The position numbers and the translations under genes are program-made. Source: Advenella incenata (GTDB taxonomy: Bacteria > Pseudomonadota > Gammaproteobacteria > Burkholderiales > Burkholderiaceae_B). Taken from it: DNA of 64,000 nucleotides. The stretch is taken from contig NZ_SHKO01000001.1 of assembly GCF_004217095.1 (NCBI RefSeq), positions 2,034,234 to 2,098,233 of the forward strand, read 5' to 3'. The notes below the pieces were generated by a model, which had not been told where the DNA came from, searched no databases, and was given only the letters and a program-made list of their open reading frames with translations. The stretch's first letter is position 1, and each line of letters begins with the position of its first letter. This document shows positions 33,969 to 40,675 of the stretch, piece by piece.

Positions 33969-33982
33969 TTGATATAGATCAA
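33969..33982 (+). promoter_or_regulatory. FNR box before the CcoI-like gene
   Basis: A perfect FNR site TTGAT-ATAG-ATCAA. A near-consensus -10 TATGAT lies at 34005-34010, putting the box centre about 41.5 bases before the predicted transcription start, as in class II FNR-activated promoters. Confidence 0.8.
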
Positions 33983-34017
33983 GATCGCTTTCTTGGATCG
34001 ATACTATGATCGGTGGT

Positions 34018-34998
34018 ATGAAACCCGCCTCCATTTTCTCGATCCCCAGCGACCTGGGCGCTCAGGAACGCCTGCAGCGCAGGCACATGCTTGCCCGGCT
34101 CGGGTTGGCCTGGCTGGTCATGATGCAGGTCATGATGTTTGCCTTCCCGGGTTATCTTCGCGCCAGCTACGCAGACGCAGAAACAGTCGATACGCTGGAC
34201 ACCGCCATTATCGTCATGAACTGGTGCAGCCTGCTGCTGACCGTGCCGGTACTGCTTTATTGCGCCTGGCCTATCTGGCGTGGCTTTCTGGGCAGGGACC
34301 CGCATGACCCCCATCAGCAGTCCATGAACTGGCCGATTGGCCTGGGCATTGTGGTGGCCTTTGTTCCCAGTGCCATCGCGACCTTTCGCCAGTCCGGCGA
34401 AGTCTATTTCGAATCCATTGCCATGTTCGTTGCCTTCGTGCTTACGGCGCGCTATCTGGCGCTTGCCGCCAGGCAATCGGCTGGCGCTGCGCTTGATCAG
34501 CGCTTCGATCAGGAGTCCAGGCTGCTGGCCAAGACGGCCGACCGGGTCGGGCTGTACTTCGTCAGTATACAAATTGCGCTGTCCATTGTGTCTGCGCTCA
34601 TCTGGTACTTGTACATTGACTCCGGCCACGCCCTGTCGGTACTGGTTGCGCTGTTTGTCATGAGTTGTCCTTGCGCCATGGCCATGGCGGTCCCTTCTGC
34701 ACAGGCAGCGGCGCGCGCCATCGTTGTTGGCAGTCCGCCACTGAGCCAGAGCGAACATATTGCCTTGCGCACGCAGACTGTCCGTGTTGCCCGCCGCGCG
34801 CTTTACGGCTCGCTGTTGTGGCACCTGCTTATGATTCCATTTGCCATGATTGGTCTGGTGCAGCCATGGCTTGCCGCCATAACCATGCTGGTTTCGTCGT
34901 TGGCCGTCGCGTTCTATGCCTGGCATTTCTATAAAAACTATACGATCGGCGAGCCTGTCGGCGCCAGCGCGATCGCGATCAACTCTTCATCGGTCTAG
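34018..34998 (+). CDS. CcoI-like P-type ATPase membrane core without catalytic domains
   Basis: A 326-residue membrane protein at the ccoI position, directly before ccoS. Eight helices align with CcoI/FixI copper P1B-ATPases: TM1-4 (residues 28-46, 64-86, 105-123, 130-150, with VYFESIAMFVAFVLTARYL), TM5 (177-200), TM6 (204-226) with the metal-binding MSCPCAMAMAVPSA, and TM7-8 (262-303). The cytosolic parts are missing: no N-terminal CxxC metal domain, no TGE actuator domain between TM4 and TM5, and no DKTGT or nucleotide-binding domain between TM6 and TM7. Usual CcoI is about 750-800 residues. It cannot hydrolyse ATP, and its role is unknown. The start may be leaderless (34018), at 34006 or at 34087. 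Confidence 0.8.
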   Translation: MKPASIFSIPSDLGAQERLQRRHMLARLGLAWLVMMQVMMFAFPGYLRASYADAETVDTLDTAIIVMNWCSLLLTVPVLLYCAWPIWRGFLGRDPHDPHQQSMNWPIGLGIVVAFVPSAIATFRQSGEVYFESIAMFVAFVLTARYLALAARQSAGAALDQRFDQESRLLAKTADRVGLYFVSIQIALSIVSALIWYLYIDSGHALSVLVALFVMSCPCAMAMAVPSAQAAARAIVVGSPPLSQSEHIALRTQTVRVARRALYGSLLWHLLMIPFAMIGLVQPWLAAITMLVSSLAVAFYAWHFYKNYTIGEPVGASAIAINSSSV

Positions 34999-35005
34999 TG
35001 CTGCC

Positions 35006-35212
35006 ATGGACGTATTCTTTCTCTTGGTGTTCCTGGCGTTTTTGTTCGTTATGAGCATTGGCGGCGTGCTGTACTGGGCTGTGATGTCGGGTCAGTTCGA
35101 AGACAGTGACCAAAACGCAAGCGTGATATTGCAGGACGAAGACGCTGCCAGTGTGCCATCCGATGACAAGCGGGGCAGTTCAGCGCCTGGCGTGACTTCT
35201 GTCAAATCGTAG
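35006..35212 (+). CDS. ccoS: cbb3-type oxidase assembly protein CcoS
   Basis: A 68-residue single-helix membrane protein. FFLLVFLAFLFVMSIGGVLYWAVMSGQFED matches the CcoS pattern, in which the helix is followed by W-A-v-x-s-g-Q-f/y-D/E-D. It takes part in insertion of metal cofactors into CcoN. It begins eight bases after the CcoI-like gene, so the two are one transcription unit. Confidence 0.92.
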   Translation: MDVFFLLVFLAFLFVMSIGGVLYWAVMSGQFEDSDQNASVILQDEDAASVPSDDKRGSSAPGVTSVKS

Positions 35213-35340: not shown

Positions 35341-35354
35341 TTGATATTTATCAA
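35341..35354 (+). promoter_or_regulatory. FNR box before ccoN
   Basis: A perfect TTGAT-ATTT-ATCAA. TAAGAT at 35376-35381 can serve as -10, which places the box close to -41. Confidence 0.85.
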
Positions 35355-35412: not shown

Positions 35413-36885
35413 ATGCGTGCCCAGAATGCGCGCTCCGCAGACGCGGAGATATTCAATTACACAGTCGTGCGCCAGTTCACCATCATGACCGTCGTGTGGG
35501 GAATTGTCGGCATGTTCGTGGGTGTCTACATAGCCGCACAACTGGTTTGGCCGGAACTGAACGTCGTAGACTGGCTCAGTTACGGTCGTCTGCGCCCGTT
35601 GCATACCAATGCGGTTATTTTTGCCTTTGGCGGTAGCGCGCTGTTTGCTACCTCCTATTATGTCGTTCAGCGCACCTGTCAGACGCGCCTGTTCTGTGGA
35701 CCACTGGCTTCGTTCACTTTCTGGGGCTGGCAACTGGTCATTGTGGCCGCTGCGATCACGCTGCCGGCCGGCTACACAACCAGCAAAGAATATGCCGAGC
35801 TTGAATGGCCTATCGACATTCTGATTACGCTGGTCTGGGTCGCCTACGCGATCGTCTTTTTCGGGACGGTAGTCAAGCGCAAGATGAAACACATTTATGT
35901 GGCCAACTGGTTCTACGGTTCATTCATTCTGACAATCGCCATCCTGCATATCTTCAACAACATCGAGTTGCCCTATAGCTGGTTCAACTCTTATTCCGCC
36001 TACGCGGGTGCGCAAGATGCCATGGTGCAATGGTGGTACGGTCACAACGCGGTGGGCTTTTTTCTTACTACCAGTTTTCTGGGCATGATGTACTACTTCG
36101 TGCCAAAACAGGCCAATCGTCCGATCTATTCCTATCGTCTGTCCATTGTTCACTTCTGGGCGCTGGCCTTTACCTACATGTGGGCAGGCCCACACCATCT
36201 GCTGTACACCTCTTTGCCTGACTGGACACAAAGCCTGGGTATGGCATTCTCCCTGATCCTGCTGGCACCTTCCTGGGGCGGCATGATCAACGGCATCATG
36301 ACCATGTCCGGTGCCTGGCACAAGCTGCGCACCGATCCTATCCTGAAGTTTCTGGTGGTGGCGCTGTCGTTCTACGGCATGTCTACCTTTGAAGGCTCCA
36401 TGATGTCCATCCGTACCGTGAATGCGCTTTCCCACTACACGGAGTGGACTGTCGCGCACGTTCATTCCGGTGCGCTCGGCTGGGTGGCCATGATCACCTT
36501 TGGCAGCCTGTATTACATGATTCCCCGTCTGTATGGTCGCGAATCCATGTATAGCAAATCATTGATCGAGGCTCATTTCTGGATGGCCACCATCGGCGTC
36601 GTGCTGTATATCGCATCAATGTGGATTGCAGGCGTGATGGAAGGGTTGATGTGGCGTTCAACAGAGGTCGACGGTACGCTGACCTACGCCTTTACTCAGG
36701 CGCTGGCATCTAAATATGTGCTGTACATCATCCGCATTGTAGGCGGGATGTGTTTCCTGAGCGGCGTGCTGGTTATGTTTTACAACATGGTCATGACCAT
36801 CAAGGGACGCAAAGGCGTTAACCCGCAAGTACCTGAATTCGTCGGCCACGATGCCCGTATTGCTCAACCCGTTACTGCTGTTTAA
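35413..36885 (+). CDS. ccoN: cbb3-type cytochrome c oxidase subunit I
   Basis: A 490-residue heme-copper oxidase catalytic subunit with about 12 membrane helices. Heme and CuB ligands appear in [34 protein letters not shown] and [14 protein letters not shown]. The high-affinity C-type enzyme reduces oxygen at low tension. It is preceded by its own FNR box and GGGGA ribosome binding site, and followed by ccoO after 10 bases. Confidence 0.98.
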
Positions 36886-37579: not shown

Positions 37580-37750
37580 ATGGACATCGCAATCGGGATC
37601 ATGACCATCGTATCCATTATGACGTTTTTTGGGATCATTGCCTGGGCCTGGTCCAGGCACCGTGTGAGCGATAACGAAGAGGCAGCGCGTCTGCCGTTTG
37701 CCGTCCCCGACGAAGCAACGACAACTCGTGGTGAAGGGTATAAAAAATGA
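37580..37750 (+). CDS. ccoQ: cbb3-type oxidase small subunit CcoQ
   Basis: A 56-residue single-helix protein (MDIAIGIMTIVSIMTFFGII, then AWAWSRHR and a short polar tail). Size, topology and position between ccoO and ccoP identify it. CcoQ stabilises the complex. Its stop overlaps the ccoP start as ATGA. Confidence 0.93.
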   Translation: MDIAIGIMTIVSIMTFFGIIAWAWSRHRVSDNEEAARLPFAVPDEATTTRGEGYKK

Positions 37751-38649
37751 GTGATTTTTTCAGTAATTCTTGGAGTTATTACATTGCCATCGTGTCTCTG
37801 GCCGGGGTGGCATGGTGCGTGTGGCTGCTGTTTACCCAGCGTCGATGGCTCAAGAGCGCAACGCCGCAAGTCGAAGATACGGGGCATGTCTGGGATGAAG
37901 ACTTGCGCGAACTCAATAATCCTGTTCCGCGCTGGTGGACGGTCATGTATCTCGGGCTTTGCGTTATCGCGCTGAGTATCATGGTACTGTTTCCAGCGCT
38001 CGGTTCCTATCCGGGTCTGCTCGGATATACCTCTGCCAAGCAGGTCGTCGCCGAACGCGAGGAACAGGCGGCACAAATCAAGCCATTGTTTGACAAGTTT
38101 TCATCCTATTCTGTCCAGGAACTGGCGGCCAATCCCGAGGCAAATGCCATCGGCAAGCGGCTCTTTCTGAACAACTGTGCACAATGCCATGGTTCCGACG
38201 CGAAAGGTTCGCCCAACTTTCCCAATCTGGCCGATGGCGACTGGCTCTACGGCGGCACACCCGAGGTCATTGTCAAATCCGTCACAGAAGGCCGCCATGG
38301 TGTAATGGCGCCCCTTGCTGCTGCGATTACACCCTCAGAGGCCAACGAAATTGCCAACTATGTGCGTTCTCTTTCCGGTCTGGCCAGTGATCCCACGCTA
38401 TTGCACGCGGGCGAGGCGGGTTTCAAGAAAGTATGTTTCGCCTGTCACGGCATGGATGCAAAAGGCAATCAGGCATTAGGTGCACCCAATCTGACCGATA
38501 ACGTCTGGCTCGGCGGCAGTTCCCGGGAGGCTATTGTCAATACGATTCTGCACGGACGCCAGGGTGTGATGCCAGCACAGAAACATGTTTTGTCTGAAGA
38601 TCAGATCCGCATGCTGGCCGCATATGTTTGGGGTTTATCCAACAAATAA
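37747..38649 (+). CDS. ccoP: cbb3-type oxidase diheme cytochrome c subunit
   Basis: A 300-residue subunit with an N-terminal membrane region and two periplasmic cytochrome c domains. The heme motifs are CAQCH and CFACH; the ligand Met residues are likely in HGVMAPL and QGVMPAQ. It takes electrons from soluble cytochrome c and passes them to CcoO. It ends the ccoNOQP set; ccoG follows after 24 bases. Confidence 0.97.
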   Translation: MSDFFSNSWSYYIAIVSLAGVAWCVWLLFTQRRWLKSATPQVEDTGHVWDEDLRELNNPVPRWWTVMYLGLCVIALSIMVLFPALGSYPGLLGYTSAKQVVAEREEQAAQIKPLFDKFSSYSVQELAANPEANAIGKRLFLNNCAQCHGSDAKGSPNFPNLADGDWLYGGTPEVIVKSVTEGRHGVMAPLAAAITPSEANEIANYVRSLSGLASDPTLLHAGEAGFKKVCFACHGMDAKGNQALGAPNLTDNVWLGGSSREAIVNTILHGRQGVMPAQKHVLSEDQIRMLAAYVWGLSNK

Positions 38650-40184: not shown

Positions 40185-40418
40185 ATGCAACTGCAGGAAA
40201 GAGATAGCGGGCCGTGGTACAGAGAGCCCTGGCCATGGCTGCTGATGGCCGGTCCCTTTGTCGCTATTATTGGTTGCGTGATTACCATTGTTCTGGCGTT
40301 TCAGAATAATCCCGACCACGATGTGCGGCTGGATGCCCGCAAGCAGGGGCTAGTGGTGACCCGTGAAGGCGCCGGGCAGTTGGGTCCGGCAGCCCCTGCT
40401 AATGTCAAGCGGGAGTGA
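40185..40418 (+). CDS. Short FixH-like protein
   Basis: A 77-residue protein with an AAGG ribosome binding site. The N-terminus WYREPWPWLLMAGPFVAIIGCVIT is the FixH signature (short polar head, W-P-W, one helix). The periplasmic domain usually following is almost absent: only about 35 residues remain (QNNPDHDVRLDARKQGLVV), without the DDYYK-like stretch I expect from the family. FixH acts with CcoI in copper delivery to cbb3 oxidase. Confidence 0.75.
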   Translation: MQLQERDSGPWYREPWPWLLMAGPFVAIIGCVITIVLAFQNNPDHDVRLDARKQGLVVTREGAGQLGPAAPANVKRE

Positions 40419-40420
40419 TC

Positions 40421-40675
40421 ATGCGTACCATCATGTGGATACTCTGGCCGTCGTTTCTTGCTGCCGGCTTTGCCAGCGGGGTGGTGTTTGCGCTGGTTGA
40501 TCCTCGGGATATTCCCTTGTTCGGGCACATCCGCATATCGAGTGAGCTGGCCTATGCTGCCGGTTTTTTTCTCTTCTGGCTGACAGCTGCTTTCTCCAGT
40601 ACACTCAGCTTTTTCATGGCTAACAGCGGCAATCAACTATCGCTGTTTTCCAGGCAAGCCGAACTGGACGATTAG
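40421..40675 (+). CDS. Small membrane protein of the cco cluster
   Basis: An 84-residue protein with two predicted helices (ILWPSFLAAGFASGVVFALV and AYAAGFFLFWLTAAFSSTLSFF). The ATG at 40421 is preferred because GGGAG ends six bases before it; a GTG at 40415 would fall inside that site. Small proteins of this type occur beside fixH in betaproteobacteria; function unknown. Confidence 0.75.
   Translation: MRTIMWILWPSFLAAGFASGVVFALVDPRDIPLFGHIRISSELAYAAGFFLFWLTAAFSSTLSFFMANSGNQLSLFSRQAELDD

Follow-up and report, generated by a model that had tools for sequence, protein, structure and literature searches.

CcoI is regarded as essential for cbb3 oxidase through its ATP-driven export of Cu(I). For R. 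capsulatus, one study (PMC8475189) reports that Cu(I) transport by CcoI needs ATP hydrolysis, that a CPC mutant of CcoI leaves about 2% of cbb3 activity, and that a CcoI–SenC fusion is functional. The same study describes a ccoI deletion that added copper failed to rescue in earlier membrane assays and in which copper raised whole-cell activity from below 10% to about 30% (PMC8475189). Extra CopA fails to rescue this deletion (PMC8475189), a sign that CcoI may do more than export copper in bulk or raise its periplasmic level. CtpA of Rubrivivax gelatinosus, a copper ATPase for making cuproenzymes, is grouped with CcoI in a review.

The window, a 64,000-nucleotide stretch of the Advenella incenata genome (4.9 Mb, 100% complete), contains a cco cluster in which the place of ccoI, beside ccoS, is occupied by a gene for a protein of 326 residues that is related to full-length CcoI. 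Among the papers listed by searches of the open-access literature, which leaves most subscription journals outside, none was seen to describe this short form or an experiment on it. The features of the cluster are as follows.

33969..33982, no strand assigned: FNR-type box TTGATATAGATCAA, its centre about 42 bp ahead of the ATG at 34018
34018..34998, + strand: short ccoI, coding for a P1B ATPase membrane core of CcoI type, 326 aa; other possible start at 34006
34666..34674, + strand: CPC motif, residues 217–219, in helix M4; invariant in 56/56 short proteins
34822..34824, + strand: His269, where the second membrane copper site otherwise has Asn; H in 56/56 short proteins, N in the 30/30 full-length proteins that reach this position
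35006..35212, + strand: ccoS; TIGR00847 and PF03597 above their cut-offs
35341..35354, no strand assigned: second FNR-type box TTGATATTTATCAA, ahead of ccoN
35413..36885, + strand: ccoN, catalytic subunit of cbb3 oxidase; TIGR00780, 753.6 bits
36896..37555, + strand: ccoO; TIGR00781 (scan from 36851, start picked by eye)
37580..37750, + strand: 56-aa ORF between ccoO and ccoP, at the place of ccoQ, by position only
37747..38649, + strand: ccoP; TIGR00782
38674..40170, + strand: ccoG; TIGR02745
40167..40418, + strand: ccoH (short, FixH-like); PF05751, 24.0 bits against a cut-off of 23, with no NCBIfam match

The reading frame of short ccoI offers two starts, an ATG at 34006 giving 330 aa and the ATG at 34018, which matches the conserved start of the relatives. 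Like CcoI/FixI, the protein has a P1B membrane core of eight helices, with CPC located in M4. Its predicted structure is all-helical and superposes on solved P1B cores; the Foldseek E-values are weak (2.0e-03 at best), CopA and ATP7B ranking first, and VIA-align made the resemblance to the ATP7B/CopA fold clear. Profile searches recover a fragment of the E1-E2_ATPase family as the single Pfam match (PF00122 positions 111–174), while the model for copper-translocating P-type ATPases (TIGR01511) scores 60.7 bits, below its curated cut-off of 397. Together, the open reading frame, the structural model on P1B cores and the position of the CPC codons bear out a sequence-only reading of the window, which had described a CcoI-type core keeping eight helices and the CPC motif and had proposed the profile search and structure prediction as checks.

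Comparison with 31 full-length CcoI proteins locates what has been lost in three stretches. The N-terminus ahead of the first helix comprises about 28 residues in the short form versus 180–254 in 28/31 full-length proteins and 52–130 in the remaining three, the full-length values being upper bounds measured from stop to stop. Between the end of M2 and M3 (Y146–F181), 36/56 short proteins have 35 residues (range 34–51) and full-length proteins 135–178, while the stretch between the end of M4 and M5 (P226–L262) measures 35 residues in 47/56 short proteins (range 33–41) against 272–311 in 28/31 full-length proteins and 169–218 in the other three. The parts missing from these stretches are the metal-binding, the actuator, and the phosphorylation plus nucleotide domains. 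Specifically, neither DKTG nor GDGxND occurs in any of the 56 short proteins, DKTGT is absent from the 55 fetched short loci, and no N-terminal CxxC begins within the first 30 residues in any of the 56. The actuator domain with its TGE is likewise missing, the sole TGE string among the 56 short proteins lying inside the M1–M2 loop of one of them (L019). The second membrane copper site of the ATPases, Asn in M5 with Met and Ser in M6, is altered as well: M290 and S293 are kept, and the Asn is His in all 56. Since four tested defining features of the CcoI ATPase are lacking, the short protein is not filed in the ATPase family. The known route of ATP hydrolysis is closed to it, the ATP-using domains being absent. 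These motif and length counts agree with the earlier description of a protein devoid of its HMA, TGE actuator, DKTGT and nucleotide domains, whose joins, placed there at about residues 160–168 and 230–255, fall within the Y146–F181 and P226–L262 stretches.

The short form is widespread within one family. Of 79 loci from GTDB species genomes, 24 carry DKTGT like full-length CcoI, and the other 55 are short, each having CPC but no DKTGT; the hosts of the short loci are named Alcaligenaceae, except for one MAG named Burkholderiaceae. The frame is open in all 55 fetched relatives (322–364 aa). Of 200 genomes sampled from the GTDB family to which the window belongs, the source genome among them, 153 match and 133 of these carry an intact short gene; a survey of Alcaligenaceae cco clusters for the same short form had been proposed as a check. 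Three further copies are damaged or cut short: in G092 (L101, 3590–7331) a stretch of about 1.06 kb interrupts the gene close to residue 164, and the ccoN of this locus also lies in two frames, in G186 about 50 residues are missing and the copy runs into a contig end, and in G060 the copy is cut at a contig end. The other matches comprise twelve in longer frames (672–858 aa; 367 aa in G079) and five weak ones, three of the latter in genomes that carry full-length genes (L126–L128). No genome among the 200 holds both forms, as judged from at most ten candidates scored in each. Beyond the family, 399 genomes of the order give nine short matches among those listed, down to E 7e-39 and from at most five candidates per genome, and all nine lie within the family. 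In 398 genomes of the phylum, with at most five candidates scored in each, 57 match at E<=1e-30; a single one of these matches is short, that of the genome from which the window comes, and the remaining 56 have frames of 764–1065 aa. Convergent short forms are thus absent elsewhere among the matches listed for these 399 order and 398 phylum genomes.

Within the family, full-length ccoI occupies the same place, in the order I-S-N-O-P-G, in seven of ten full-length loci examined (L095, L096, L100, L103 and L126–L128); the remaining three (L097–L099) have N-O-P before I(-S), which speaks against a simple picture. A ccoN tree of 65 rows, 52 of them from short-form loci, places all short-form rows on a single side of one branch (SH-aLRT 93) with L095 and L096 nearest; four of the 55 short loci and one of 14 full-length loci (L082) are omitted from it, their aligned pieces being shorter than 400 aa. 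In a tree of the membrane core (87 rows, linker columns omitted), all 56 short rows lie on one side of a branch with support 100. Both trees are quick searches calculated with no bootstrap, the core tree is flagged for long branches that meet (L060 with L100; L043 with L059 and others), and L101 and L102 were set aside from all alignments. The topologies fit a single event, which would be enough to explain the short form. Since the trees need one event, the earlier idea of a repeated loss of the soluble parts is unsupported; its companion claim, that the soluble parts alone were lost with no frameshift from a CcoI-derived and maintained protein, agrees with the data. The short protein is a relative, and most likely a descendant, of CcoI. 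As a separate observation, the genome with locus L095 (G026) is placed in a genus (g27) whose other sampled members mostly have the short gene, yet the ccoI that it carries at this locus is full-length, which may reflect gene exchange or a misplaced genome.

The short gene is associated with the cbb3 oxidase. ccoS lies directly downstream in 54/55 fetched loci, L044 being the one where none was detected. ccoN comes next in the same orientation in 54/55 and is divergent in L049. A match to ccoN at E<=1e-100 occurs in 131 of the 133 family genomes with an intact short gene; of the two exceptions, G178 has ccoN in several frames and G098 has it cut by a contig end. Four genomes have ccoN with no CcoI match, and all four end at contig edges, while G060 and G186, with their cut or shortened copies, have no ccoN match at E<=1e-100. 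A Fisher test of the association (131, 2, 4, 43), from which 20 genomes were left out (12 with longer frames, 5 with weak matches, 3 with damaged or cut copies), gives p 2.5e-34, a value that relatedness makes too small. In the G178 locus (L120, 3616–8366; same genus as the window's), ccoN and ccoG both lie in several frames and the short gene is intact, perhaps reflecting a noisy assembly. At the other end of the window's cluster, ccoH is followed by a small ORF of 86 aa (40415–40675) with no Pfam match, a relative of which occurs in 42/55 short loci, some of them cut by contig ends, and also in L095 and L096 beside full-length ccoI.

Upstream, an FNR-type box (TTGAYN4RTCAA) lies within 300 bp of 49/56 short genes, where 0.07 would be expected in shuffled sequence, and it falls at −40 to −47 in 47/56, in line with the sequence-only reading that FNR control is retained. 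In a class II FNR promoter the site is at −41.5. If the box of the window, centred about 42 bp before the ATG, belongs to such a promoter, transcription would begin close to the start codon itself, and the short ccoI message may be nearly leaderless.

Across the 56 short proteins, 55 of 326 positions are invariant. C217, P218, C219, M290 and S293 are kept as in full-length CcoI, and C217, C219, M290 and S293 are identical in 56/56. Surrounding these, several residues differ between the two forms in a nearly fixed manner: besides His269, position 268 is W in 55/56 short proteins and Y in 29/30 full-length ones; position 223, near CPC, is M in 55/56 versus L in 31/31; position 221 is M in 52/56 versus L in 27/31; and Q185 is fixed in the short form, where full-length CcoI has V, L, I or T. 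Residue 132, which we take from CopA structures to be the exit-path acid (Glu), is D or E in 56/56 short and 31/31 full-length proteins. Of the acids that presumably line the cytosolic entry path, E148 is present in 45/56 short versus 31/31 full-length proteins, and position 175 has D in 34 short proteins, N in the other 22, and D or E in 28/31 full-length ones. The helices of the short form contain on average 16.4 Met (11–20) and 5.6 His (3–10) versus 10.1 (6–17) and 2.1 (0–6) in full-length CcoI, with L060 (561 aa, incomplete) set aside from the means; these ranges overlap, the counts are uncorrected for relatedness, and other causes of the difference are possible. The sequence-only reading had offered three roles, a passive copper channel, a copper scaffold or a partner of another ATPase; with the ligand changes fixed as they are, a scaffold or relay that binds copper is favoured, and the loosened entry side fits a Cu(I) receptor that would take exported or periplasmic copper.

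The preferred reading, on which we are evenly balanced between belief and doubt, is that short CcoI takes part in the assembly of cbb3 oxidase as a factor that binds Cu(I) and needs no ATP. Its membrane core, which keeps CPC, the Met and Ser of the second site and the acid at 132 and gains His and Met at and around the sites, would hold Cu(I) inside the membrane beside CcoS and nascent CcoN by means of Cys, Met and His, and would hand it on to the CuB site of CcoN. The copper would have been exported earlier by a CopA-like ATPase or would come from periplasmic chaperones such as SenC. In this mechanism the changed residues presumably bind copper, CcoN and CcoS are the putative contacts, and the direction and source of the copper are likewise those that we infer. 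Against the assembly factor stand the ATP requirement of R. capsulatus CcoI, the at best partial rescue of the ccoI deletion in that species by added copper, the intact short gene of G178 beside a ccoN in several frames, the short copies of G060 and G186 in genomes lacking a ccoN match at E<=1e-100, and the presence of acid 132 in full-length CcoI as well. Observations on B. bronchiseptica (PMC11257404) are also counted against it, on the assumption that the strain has the short gene: ccoN is strongly transcribed and no strain relying on cco alone could be obtained in air. Likewise no strain was obtained on any of four other single oxidases, and for cco the authors consider that translation, assembly or cofactors may fall short (PMC11257404).

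The same residues bear on two alternatives. The helices could act as a copper-free structural scaffold that merely joins CcoS, CcoN and other assembly proteins, the copper arriving otherwise; the invariant residues include many that do not ligate copper (W32, Q185, N68, P117), and the presumed entry acids have drifted, but the CPC cysteines should then be free to drift too, whereas they, M290 and S293 are invariant and new Met and His residues are nearly fixed close by, so that we regard it as unlikely. Slightly less probable still is a passive Cu(I) channel or carrier, exporting down a gradient made by chaperones or importing by the membrane potential. It draws on the retained P1B transport core with its ATP7B/CopA fold and on the acid conserved at 132 in the presumed exit path; the drift of the cytosolic entry acids speaks against it, as does the loss of the gating A and P domains, since an ungated copper leak should be harmful.

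The genome contains other P-type ATPases. PF00122 finds the short ccoI and three full ATPases, with neither a free A domain elsewhere in the genome nor a further P-type ATPase inside the cco cluster. L091 is CopA-like (TIGR01511 592.8 bits, above the cut-off of 397; 710.7 of the 1316 demanded by the stricter CopA model PRK10671) and adjoins a gene that is MerR-type by eye; L092 is a ZntA-like heavy-metal ATPase, just below the TIGR01511 cut-off at 382.3 bits and short of the ZntA models; and L093 is KdpB-like, called by eye from its kdp-like neighbours. The genome search that had been proposed as a check thus returned no full-length CcoI, and the idea that the missing domains are encoded elsewhere is rejected in part by the same hits. 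Three SenC/Sco proteins and two small HMA proteins are also present. Across the family sample, TIGR01511 matches at E<=1e-40, a threshold loose enough to let in ZntA-like ATPases too, occur in 132 of the 133 genomes whose short gene is intact, and the single genome lacking one (G175) is 78% complete. The suggestion that some short-form genomes are devoid of any copper ATPase gained no support from six genomes with weak best scores: when re-examined, all six exceed the cut-off, G064, G032, G143 and G077 with 571–585 bits in one frame and G124 and G189 with only 404–407 bits plus partial pieces. Weak best scores occur also in G119, G146 and G182.

These data give some footing to the idea that short CcoI is a non-catalytic partner of a full-length CopA-like ATPase that does the pumping, for L091 is the single P1B ATPase shown above the copper cut-off in the window's genome and matches accompany nearly all short genes. 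Copper and related heavy-metal P1B ATPases, however, occur in 189/200 sampled family genomes, equally commonly in the whole sample, which makes the co-occurrence uninformative; moreover, CopA owns a complete membrane core and the cco cluster has no other P-type ATPase, and we consider such a partnership improbable. The idea of a dead gene's relic or a sequencing or assembly error, which would account for the absence of every soluble domain and for the broken G092 and G186 copies, can be dismissed as very improbable, being ruled out by the open frames of all 55 relatives, by intact copies in 133/136 family genomes with a short-form match, by ccoN of G092 being in two frames too, and by purifying selection (pairwise Nei-Gojobori dN/dS, own script: 0.13–0.14 against the two nearest relatives, 0.09–0.30 in eight pairs with dS <0.5, and 0.05–0.63 in all 54 pairs with pS <0.5).

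Returning to the Cu(I)-binding assembly factor, its evolutionary extension, which we hold tentatively and at a little under even weight, is that the membrane half of a P-type pump changed once, in an ancestor shared by most of the Alcaligenaceae sampled, to become a Cu(I) receptor and CuB insertase that uses no ATP, so that cbb3 oxidase would be loaded by no dedicated copper-pumping ATPase. A family that keeps the membrane half alone represents a natural separation of pumping from the other work of CcoI, and it makes directly testable whether CcoI is also a docking or insertion factor for CuB. The locus suggests a hand-over of copper to cbb3 oxidase in which no dedicated pump takes part, and the short protein, a changed relative of CcoI, may do part of CcoI's work; if true, it would clearly exemplify how a P-type ATPase can give rise to a protein that is no ATPase and is nonetheless maintained.

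Among known systems, the closest is CcoI/FixI, the CopA2-type P1B-1 ATPase, which shares with the short form the helices, the CPC motif and mostly the same place before ccoS. The Met-rich first helix is also partly common to full-length CcoI (M36 in 31/31, M39 in 25, M40 in 21 and M35 in 16). The short form differs in lacking the N-terminal metal-binding, A, P and N domains and in its replacements of Asn by His and Tyr by Trp, with Met beside CPC. It is set apart from the P1B-1 copper exporters CopA, ATP7B and HMA4 by the absence of the soluble domains and by its linkage to the cbb3 cluster, and CtpA of Rubrivivax gelatinosus, unlike the short form, is a full ATPase.
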